A program made the translations under genes and the position numbers. From contig NZ_CP041743.1 of NCBI RefSeq assembly GCF_007556815.1, positions 744,001-808,000 of the forward strand: 64,000 nt of DNA, written 5' to 3'. The DNA is from Paraburkholderia megapolitana (lineage in GTDB: Bacteria > Pseudomonadota > Gammaproteobacteria > Burkholderiales > Burkholderiaceae). Positions 36,942-41,032 of the stretch are shown here, one piece after another. Numbering within the stretch: position 1 is the stretch's first letter; every line of letters starts with the position of its first letter. Under the pieces are notes generated by a model. It had not been told where the DNA came from. It made no database searches and worked only from the letters and a program-made list of their open reading frames with translations.

Positions 36942-38198
<1,257 letters not shown>

Positions 38199-38359: not shown

Positions 38360-40252
38360 ATGCATTACCTGATTCGCGTGATATCCGCAGCACTGATTTT
38401 TGCCACCTCATACGGCGCTGTACAAGCCGCCAACACCGCAAAACCTGCCGATTTCCAGCCCAACATCACGATCCTCGTCGACGACACCGTCTACAACGTC
38501 AACGCAGACGGCACCTACACGAAAGACATCACCGAGAGCTTTCGCATCAATACGGACCAGGGCGTCCAGCAACGCGGACAGGTATCGCTGCGCTACAGCA
38601 CGTCGCTCGAAGAACTGAACATCGAGCAGGCGTACACGACCACCCAGGACGGCCGCCGCATCGACGTCACGCCGGACAAGATTCTCGAGCAGCAAAGCGC
38701 GGAAGGCGCCCAGGCGCCGATGTTCGACGACAACAAGGTCAAAGTCGTGGTCTTCCCGAGCGTCGCAATCGGCACGACGCTCACGCTGCGTTATAAAAGC
38801 ACGCAGAAAAAGCCCATGTTTCCGGGGCAATTCTCGACTCTTGAGTATTACGGCGTCGGGACGCCCAGAGAGTCAATGCATCTGACAATCCGCGCGCCGG
38901 CTTCGATGAAACTGTATGTCGATGCAATCGATCTCGGCGGTGGCCGCGCTACTGCGGACAAACCGGATACGCAGCTCTGGAAATGGTCGCTGACGAATCG
39001 TCCGGCGCGGCCGCCCGAACTGGGCTCGGTCAGCAGCGTCGACTACAGCCCGCGCGTGGCGGTGAGCACATTCCCGAATTTCGCAACTGCCGGTGCGGCC
39101 TATCTCGATCGGGCAGCGCCGAAGGCTGCGGTGACACCGGCTGTCCAGGCGCTCGCGGACAAGCTCACCCAGGGCGTCACGGACCCGCGGCAACAAGCCG
39201 AGATCCTTTATAACTGGGTCAGCACGAACATTCGTTATGTGGCGATCTATCTTGGCTTCGGCGGTGTCGTGCCGCACGATGCCGGCGCGATTCTCGACGC
39301 GGCATACGGCGACTGCAAGGACCACGTGACCTTGCTCGAAGCGCTGCTCGCGGCGAAGGGCATCAAGAGCGCGCCCGTACTGGTCAACGCGTACGACAGC
39401 TACTGGGTGCCGAAAGCCGCCATGCCGGTTGGCGTGTTCAATCACGCAATCACCTACCTGCCCGCCTTCAATCTGTTTGTCGATTCGACTGCGGGGCTCG
39501 CGCGTTTCGGCACACTACCCGATTCCGAACTCGGCAAACCCGCCCTGGTGACCGACGACGGCAGCGGCACCGCGCGTCTCGTGACGCTGCCCGTCGCCAA
39601 CCCTGACAGCGCCCGCGTGAAGGTCACGACGCAACTCACGATCGATCGCACAGGCAACGTGCTCGGCACCAGTCAGATCGACAATCAGGGCGCCTTCGAT
39701 CTGCTGTCGCGACAACTCTTCTCGTCCATTCGTCCTGGCCTTGAAACGCAGATTGCCGCACGGGTCCTGACGATGACCGGTCAGGACGGCACGGGCGGCT
39801 ACACCCACGGCGAGGTACGCGACCTGACGAAGCCGTTCAATTACGAAACGCGGTTTACGTTGCCCGATTACGCGCTGTTCCCCGGACCAGGCGCGATCCA
39901 GGTACCGGCGGGGCTGGGTAGCTTCAGCAACATCAGCTCGACGTTCGAGCAGACTTCTCAGGACAAGCGCGAATACGCGATGCCCATGGCTGGGCGACAT
40001 GTGACGGAGACGACAACCATTACGCTGCCGGACGGTGTCAAGATTCCCGTCTTGCCCAAACCGGCCAACATCGCCTCGCAATGGGGAACGTATACGTCGG
40101 CGTACCAAGTCGACGGCCAGACCATCACCGTGACGCGCAATCTGGATATCACCTTGCCCGGTGGACTGATCGAGCCCGATCAATATCCGGAGTTCAGAAA
40201 GATGGGACGCGCAGTGAAGCGCGATCTGCGAACCCAGCTGGTTTACTACTAG
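38360..40252 (+). CDS. DUF3857 and transglutaminase-like domain protein
   Basis: This is a 630-aa periplasmic protein. A signal peptide ends near residue 23 (YGAVQAA). DUF3857 covers about 45-230. A transglutaminase-like core (about 265-400) shows the full triad: Cys in AAYGDCKDHVTLLEALL, His in GVFNHAITY, Asp in LFVDSTAG. A beta-rich C-terminal domain completes it. Family members probably act as cysteine peptidases or cross-linkers in the envelope; the substrate is unknown. It stands alone, divergent from pobA with no functional link apparent. Confidence 0.85.
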   Translation: MHYLIRVISAALIFATSYGAVQAANTAKPADFQPNITILVDDTVYNVNADGTYTKDITESFRINTDQGVQQRGQVSLRYSTSLEELNIEQAYTTTQDGRRIDVTPDKILEQQSAEGAQAPMFDDNKVKVVVFPSVAIGTTLTLRYKSTQKKPMFPGQFSTLEYYGVGTPRESMHLTIRAPASMKLYVDAIDLGGGRATADKPDTQLWKWSLTNRPARPPELGSVSSVDYSPRVAVSTFPNFATAGAAYLDRAAPKAAVTPAVQALADKLTQGVTDPRQQAEILYNWVSTNIRYVAIYLGFGGVVPHDAGAILDAAYGDCKDHVTLLEALLAAKGIKSAPVLVNAYDSYWVPKAAMPVGVFNHAITYLPAFNLFVDSTAGLARFGTLPDSELGKPALVTDDGSGTARLVTLPVANPDSARVKVTTQLTIDRTGNVLGTSQIDNQGAFDLLSRQLFSSIRPGLETQIAARVLTMTGQDGTGGYTHGEVRDLTKPFNYETRFTLPDYALFPGPGAIQVPAGLGSFSNISSTFEQTSQDKREYAMPMAGRHVTETTTITLPDGVKIPVLPKPANIASQWGTYTSAYQVDGQTITVTRNLDITLPGGLIEPDQYPEFRKMGRAVKRDLRTQLVYY

Positions 40253-40284
40253 GCAAACCCGCCTTCGATTAAAGGAAGCGTCCA

Positions 40285-40430
40285 TGCCCGGCGAGCGCAC
40301 CCCGGCTTCGATGAAGCCGGACCTCGCTCGCATCGCCGCCCACGGTAAAGGCGGCGTAACACCCGGGCACAGCTTGTGGCTGTGGCGAACCGCCGCCGCA
40401 GGTAAGCGGCCTGCGAAGCGTTTCCGGGCA
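40285..40430 (+). ncRNA. Multibranched structured intergenic element
   Basis: In the gap between the DUF3857 gene and lrp, TGCCCGG (40285-40291) pairs with CCGGGCA (40424-40430). Inside lie four GC-rich arms: 40291-40331 (GCGAGCG/CGCTCGC with inner CCGGCTTC/GAAGCCGG), 40334-40356 (CGCCGCC/GGCGGCG), 40368-40384 (CACAGC/GCTGTG) and 40398-40414 (GCAGG/CCTGC). A second CCGGGCA at 40363-40369 could compete for the first strand. This supports a structured RNA or a folded intergenic repeat. It matches no riboswitch class I recognise, and the transcribed strand is not proven. Confidence 0.5.
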
Positions 40431-40558
40431 CGGAAGCGTGATGTAAATATACCCAGCTTCCGCCTGTAAGGGCTTCCTGTTTTCCGCCAGACATCAGTGT
40501 TTTGCAGAAGCTTCTTCCGGTATCATCGTCATTAAATTGATAATGTTCCGGAGCCTCC

Positions 40559-41032
40559 ATGACCTCGCGTAATCGCCCGCTCGACCCGCAGGATCTCAAG
40601 ATCATGCGCGAGCTGCAAACCAATGCGCGCGTCAGCAATGCCGATCTCGCCGAGCGCGTCGGCATGTCGACCACCGCGTGCTGGAACCGGACGCGGCAAC
40701 TGGAAAGCGATGGTTATATCCGCGGTTATGTCGCGCTGCTCGACCACCAGAAGCTCGGGCTCGCCGATATCGTGCTCCTCGAAGTCACGCTCGATCGTCA
40801 CGACGACAATGCGCTCGCGCGCTTCGGCGCGGAACTGGCCGAGCTGCCCGAAGTGCTGGAGGCGTACCTGGTATCGGGCGAATACGACTATCTGGTGAAA
40901 GTCGCGGTGGACGGCACCGCGGGGTACGAGCGTTTTCTACGCGAGAAGCTCTACAAGATCGCCGGTATTCGCCACAGCCGCTCGATGTTCACCCTGCGCT
41001 GCATGAAGAGCATCCCGTCCGTGCAGGTTTAA
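40559..41032 (+). CDS. Lrp/AsnC family transcriptional regulator
   Basis: This is a 157-aa regulator. The N-terminal helix-turn-helix is clear: LDPQDLKIMRELQTNARVSN, then LAERVGMSTTACWNRTRQLE (residues 28-47). The C-terminal RAM/AsnC domain has VLLEVTLDRHDDNALARF and the ligand-loop SGEYDYLVKVAV. It is downstream of the structured element at 40285-40430 and convergent with the ABC binding-protein gene. It probably senses an amino acid; the target genes are unknown. Confidence 0.92.
   Translation: MTSRNRPLDPQDLKIMRELQTNARVSNADLAERVGMSTTACWNRTRQLESDGYIRGYVALLDHQKLGLADIVLLEVTLDRHDDNALARFGAELAELPEVLEAYLVSGEYDYLVKVAVDGTAGYERFLREKLYKIAGIRHSRSMFTLRCMKSIPSVQV

Follow-up and report, generated by a model that had tools for sequence, protein, structure and literature searches.

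Divergent pairs of a regulator gene and a small RNA gene are known from GcvA/GcvB, SgrR/SgrS and OxyR/OxyS, and riboswitches and attenuators stand before exporter genes. The locus described here resembles both. It lies in the window, i.e. the whole stretch of 64,000 nucleotides that was analysed, whose source genus is Paraburkholderia; the Lrp protein encoded there and its counterpart in P. acidicola ATCC 31363 are 100% identical. As in the GcvA/GcvB-type pairs, the RNA gene is located beside and divergent from the regulator gene, and the two are inherited together; the regulator gene (lrp) starts 102-111 nt from the conserved block in 87 of 93 loci, and the wobble pairs place the RNA on the divergent strand. 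The differences are that the regulator is of the Lrp/AsnC type, that the RNA is larger and multibranched and that it is also an exporter leader in many species. With the exporter riboswitches and attenuators the locus shares a conserved complex leader before a LysE-family gene, with an intrinsic terminator in some loci, whereas here the RNA is kept where the gene is gone and the window's copy has no Rfam match. In divergent lrp-exporter loci an Lrp-type gene likewise stands opposite a LysE exporter (EamA in three loci of a distant clade). Here, however, the RNA lies between the promoter and the exporter, and it outlives the exporter. The biofilm small RNAs of B. cenocepacia (PMC5688073) come from the same bacterial family and are transcribed independently; the main text of that article mentions neither Lrp nor AsnC. 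A search of open-access literature by titles and the starts of abstracts found no paper on this element.

Comparative analysis established the homology, structure and strand of the RNA, its place by lrp, the lysE gene behind it in 50 of 118 loci and its retention after lysE loss. In the reading that we consider narrowly probable, minus-strand positions 40439-40278 encode a conserved structured RNA, divergent from the Lrp/AsnC-type gene, that would be a lysE leader and also a stand-alone RNA. The significance of the locus lies in a compact covarying RNA, without an Rfam match for the window's copy, in a regulator-RNA-exporter logic. The species with and without lysE are natural loss experiments separating leader from stand-alone function, and the stand-alone role, if true, would mean that a leader RNA had become a regulator in its own right.

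Fold and strand of the RNA

The element reported in the earlier note (40258-40475) sits between a DUF3857/transglutaminase-like gene and the Lrp/AsnC-type gene. The flanking genes, the RNA and its helices are positioned as follows.

38360-40252, plus strand: convergent DUF3857/transglutaminase-like gene, with 25 nt from its end to the 3' stem arm of the RNA
40278-40439, minus strand: structured RNA, ~160 nt long, with its 5' end predicted near 40438-40440 and the conserved arm of its 3' stem ending at 40278 (homologues, covariation, G.U asymmetry, fold z -4.5)
40424-40437, minus strand: 5' arm of the closing helix P1, pairing with 40278-40291 (helix 1, 96.3% of cells paired)
40387-40412, minus strand: hairpin P5, the lowest-pairing helix (helix 2, 83.8% of cells paired, two-sided change in 7 of 10 pairs)
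40369-40383, minus strand: hairpin P4 with the loop GCCACAAGC (helix 3, 98.6% of cells paired)
40334-40355, minus strand: hairpin P3 (helix 4, 92.3% of cells paired, two-sided change in 6 of 9 pairs)
40292-40330, minus strand: two-part hairpin P2a/P2b (helices 5 and 6, 86.5% and 92.2% of cells paired)
40278-40291, minus strand: 3' arm of P1, containing TGCCCGG in plus-strand letters (consensus structure and window pairs)
40559-41032, plus strand: Lrp/AsnC-family regulator gene, the divergent partner of the RNA (PF01037 and HTH matches)

A 4-hydroxybenzoate 3-monooxygenase-like gene is also located near the locus (window 36942-38114, minus strand).

Several strong hairpins, homologues and compensatory changes confirm the multibranch structured element of the earlier note, which had named the lack of both homologous copies and compensatory base changes as one outcome that would speak against it; both were clearly found. 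The piece 40258-40475 folds better than its shuffles on both strands (z -4.5 for plus, z -3.9 for minus). Folding of the RNA alone gave z -4.5 (40278-40439, minus strand) and z -5.5 (LB400 copy), and five pieces without part of the RNA gave values from -3.95 to +0.10. The folds of the window RNA and the LB400 RNA have the same plan, composed of the closing stem P1, P5, P4, P3 and the two-part P2. In 29 nonredundant rows, which were drawn from the 77 better-matching copies with the short and the long diverged forms left out, 91.6% of the cells of a 51-pair structure are paired, vs. 86.8% in shuffles and 38-43% when the structure is slid. Two-sided changes were found in 25 of the 51 pairs of these rows (shuffled mean 12.7, with 25 reached in 0 of 500 shuffles), and the covariation score is 0.272 vs. 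0.189. The prediction made by RNAalifold itself has most helices in common with this structure. In the window copy, 44 of the 51 consensus pairs form, five do not and two have a gap. A further helix (P6, A6 columns 32-39 with 97-104) appears in the folds of the window RNA and the LB400 RNA and is paired in 80.6% of cells, with covariation not above shuffles. By eye, the P4 loop is recognisable in loci of Chitinimonas and Silvimonas, and it is absent from short forms, e.g. L234 and L240.

The earlier note had also proposed two exclusive folds of the element. TGCCCGG at 40285-40291 indeed has exact partners at 40363-40369 and 40424-40430, and the stem with 40363-40369 is present in the minimum-energy fold of the window's plus strand. 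However, only the stem with 40424-40430, which belongs to helix 1, is conserved; the alternative stem is paired in 51.8% of cells, vs. 51.5% in shuffles. Non-Watson-Crick cells indicate that the RNA is the minus strand, because an A.C mismatch on one strand reads as G.U on its complement. In plus-strand letters, the 57 best rows show 250 A.C, 41 G.U and 93 other cells in an alignment to a model built for the plus strand. In minus-strand letters, a MAFFT alignment shows 161 G.U, 43 A.C and 80 other cells with a structure hand-drawn on one MAFFT row, which gives a bias opposite to that of the plus-strand model, and both counts agree. The evidence thus favours the minus strand over the plus-strand reading of the earlier note. 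Comparison of the window with Rfam 15, in which this family was represented by the window's copy only, gave no hit above gathering; one sub-threshold hit (16 of 45 bits) is located at 40206-40287 on the plus strand.

Homologues and the proposed control region shared with lrp

Matches by blastn (E ≤ 0.001) were found in 8 of 58 other genomes, seven of which belong to the same genus, the remaining match being a discounted 39-nt piece. A first covariance model of seven copies gave exactly one match each in 98 of 144 same-genus genomes (E ≤ 0.01), in a scan that scored 18 candidates per genome and could miss diverged extra copies. The window's own genome has one full copy, the other hits being short or weak (E 0.007 to 0.6). 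The single matches per genome contradict the dispersed family suggested in the earlier note, and a dispersed repeat, REP or MITE was rejected on these counts. Phage or plasmid DNA was rejected as well: the window's copy had no match there, and the peptide of the earlier note, after extension, matched no phage record. Annotated peptides had been said to recur, but a query from the LB400 copy returned a single annotated 55-aa protein, and a query in the frame of the noted peptide matched no annotated protein. The protein returned, the hypothetical B0G76_4004 (P0001, Paraburkholderia sp. BL23I1N1), lies on the RNA strand and is probably spurious. A conserved protein-coding gene was rejected, as 77 copies have no conserved reading frame.

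A second model, built from 29 nonredundant minus-strand copies, matched 21 of 22 regions upstream of lrp in genomes with lrp but no first-model hit (E ≤ 0.02), and with both models the RNA is found in at least 119 of the 144 Paraburkholderia genomes. Among the named loci (the best 80 of 172 by Lrp), 76 match the first model; in the other four, the motifs were seen by eye in L160, L171 and L173 and not in L119. For lrp, the identity of the matches is 68-83% in further families of the order, and one genome of another genus of the family (G427) has a match of 78%. Beside lrp, matches to the second model were obtained in Silvimonas, several Chitinimonas-type loci and G427 (E 3.6e-5 to 0.02), and the loop and the promoter motif were seen by eye in part of these loci. 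An lrp-RNA pair with a diverged RNA occurs in patchy distribution at L160, L161, L162, L164, L183 and L270 (Chitinimonas, Silvimonas and another genus of the family), L270 being the diverged match beside lrp in G427. In the Lrp tree, Paraburkholderia shows no clean separation from the Silvimonas, Chitinimonas and G427 groups. The distribution beyond Paraburkholderia may reflect transfer or old inheritance.

The 93 loci in which the distance to lrp was taken represent 93 of the 98 first-model hits. The six outside the 102-111 nt range have no lrp hit (L012, L033, L058 and L069) or lrp fragments (L056 and L086), and L034, among the 87, has a partial lrp match only. In the window, lrp starts at 40559, 128 nt beyond 40430, as the earlier note had it. 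An lrp match at E ≤ 1e-62 was found in 117 of the 144 genus genomes. RNA and lrp match occur together in 116 genomes, the RNA only in three (G103, G032 and G141), lrp only in one (G095) and neither in 24, a co-occurrence that is biased towards lrp because the re-examination with the second model was limited to genomes with an lrp match. In G148, the match to lrp lies on a different contig and is another protein (75%). The lrp match is far from the RNA in G066 and G152 (~10 kb) and in G014 (~1.2 kb); at L254 (G066) and L255 (G152), part of the intergenic region is kept on each side.

The intergenic region contains three motifs.

40446-40451, minus strand: TATATT, a putative -10-like motif for the RNA, unchanged in 29 of 29 rows and at the end of the conserved block
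40471-40475, minus strand: AAGCC box, 18 nt upstream of GTATATTT (fixed TATA offset, pattern hits)
40521-40526, plus strand: probable lrp -10, TATCAT (consensus TAnAAT), flanked by two GGAA..TTCC-like repeats (consensus of 92 intergenic regions)

The TATA motif and the AAGCC box were both matched in 117 of 139 distinct upstream sequences, and their offset is 25 nt in 116 of these; the 22 without a match include several of the more distant families. On the lrp side, the first GGAA..TTCC-like site is 35 or 36 nt from the AAGCC box in all 107 sequences matched (of 117, within a limited search window), and much of the sequence between the two is poorly conserved. The -35 region of the putative RNA promoter is not canonical, and a sigma-70 scan of 40000-40700 gave no promoter-like site. 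The promoter pattern matched 26 of 299 family genomes, all in the window's genus, and 15 of 399 order genomes; of the latter, those in the window's genus together with g22 and g134 seem to be related cases, and the remaining nine seem random. A further search of the 399 order genomes (R2) matched in three, with six candidates scored per genome among the matches listed. These spacings suggest a shared, phased control region between the RNA and lrp, and from position and spacing we infer control of the RNA by Lrp. The Lrp-type protein would bind phased sites between both promoters and control its own gene and the RNA, whose transcription would start near TATATT. Complementarity between the RNA loops and the lrp start region is below that of random stretches in 22 loci.

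The lysE gene behind the RNA and the competing readings

A LysE-family protein (PF01810) of one locus, used as a tblastn query, revealed the gene divergent from lrp and behind the RNA. In 118 genus loci (all RNA- or lrp-positive genomes minus G032 and G010), the RNA strand carries a lysE match from the first residues in 50, a C-terminal remnant in eight and no lysE that could be found in 60. Presence is defined here by a match beginning at the first residues, whatever its length: L034 matches over no more than 37 residues and L018, where the contig ends, over 97. The L253 sequence is not long enough for lysE to be seen. In the 50 loci, the RNA is a conserved structured 5' leader of the lysE reading frame, 51-189 nt away in 20 model-aligned loci, an association that is not maintained in the loci with a remnant or without lysE. 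A leader beside an Lrp-type gene, as the switch upstream of that gene in the earlier note implied, was a reasonable guess. However, the RNA points away from lrp, and in these 50 loci the gene that it leads is an exporter gene. The remnants stand behind a well-conserved RNA at L015, L017, L042, L046, L055, L056, L059 and L064. No lysE was found at the window locus, and the window genome has no lysE ortholog, the best of 14 matches being 33% identical. The locus of P. xenovorans LB400 likewise showed no lysE, and P. ginsengisoli has the gene.

An alignment of 71 rows, fitted to the model, gave a paired fraction of 0.955 for the 20 rows with lysE, 0.966 for the 8 with a remnant and 0.901 for the 43 without lysE. 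The 43 lysE-less rows show two-sided change in 27 pairs, vs. a mean of 15.1 and a maximum of 22 in 200 shuffles. The lysE-less graminis-type clade has two-sided change in seven pairs and some unpaired cell in 20 of 51 pairs, the LB400-like set (one member with a remnant) has two-sided change in seven pairs, and two-sided change is absent from the saeva clade and from the comparison of the window with P. acidicola. The covarying changes in the lysE-less rows may predate the lysE losses; selection on the RNA after lysE loss is likely, although not proved. A LacI-type gene stands further downstream whether or not lysE is present, suggesting that lysE was removed more than once from the stretch between the RNA and LacI. 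Behind the RNA, terminator-like sites occur on its own strand in 9 of 92 loci and on the opposite strand in just as many, and 11 of 274 control windows have them. A strong intrinsic terminator, a GCGC hairpin with a T run on the RNA strand, is located just behind P1 and before lysE in six lysE-bearing loci of the unamae/tropica type (L092, L099, L102, L103, L104 and L105). Terminator-like sites are found at other places in L057, L061 and L065.

A purely cis-acting lysE leader (riboswitch, attenuator or translational control, e.g. with amino-acid sensing), whose lysE-less copies would be leftovers, is consistent with the short distance to lysE on the RNA strand, the 50 loci that have the gene and the unamae/tropica-type terminators. 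However, in the loci with a remnant or without lysE the structure is about as complete and still covaries, and the window genome is among those without an ortholog, so that we consider this reading rather unlikely. A structured RNA without base-pairing targets that is bound by a protein, which could be the Lrp-type regulator or some RNA-binding protein, would agree with the close co-occurrence with lrp and the compact, heavily paired fold, but RNA binding by this Lrp-type protein is a supposition, and this explanation has a small chance of being correct. A plus-strand leader or switch before lrp, or a dispersed repeat, is very improbable. Its position before lrp and the good fold of its plus strand are in keeping with this reading, but the wobble asymmetry, the unconserved alternative stem and the one match per genome argue against it, as do the probable lrp promoter between the element and lrp and the presence of lysE behind the RNA on the minus strand. 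That the element is a small protein gene, or a structure arising by chance in GC-rich DNA, is scarcely credible: reading frames on the RNA strand are open in 56-59 of 77 copies and one 55-aa protein is annotated, but every frame is interrupted in some copies, the lengths modulo 3 are distributed as 35, 24 and 18 of 77, and paired positions covary.

The reading of the RNA as both a leader and a stand-alone RNA is preferred because the tie to lrp is close and the tie to lysE is looser. The older transcript would have served lysE as a structured 5' leader, and its RNA part would also work alone as a small RNA, acting in trans, perhaps via conserved loops such as the P4 loop CCACAAG; the window would hold the stand-alone form only. 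A stand-alone small-RNA role would explain the loss of lysE with the RNA kept. More tentatively, and with some doubt, we propose that the leader RNA of an amino-acid exporter gene, in a locus under Lrp control, became an independent partner RNA of the Lrp regulator, trans-acting or ligand-sensing, whose fold and place were kept after repeated exporter loss, and that this is common to Paraburkholderia, Silvimonas and Chitinimonas. In the more distant Lrp clade, L279, L283 and L284 have an EamA exporter divergent from lrp, and a similar box was seen by eye upstream of lrp.
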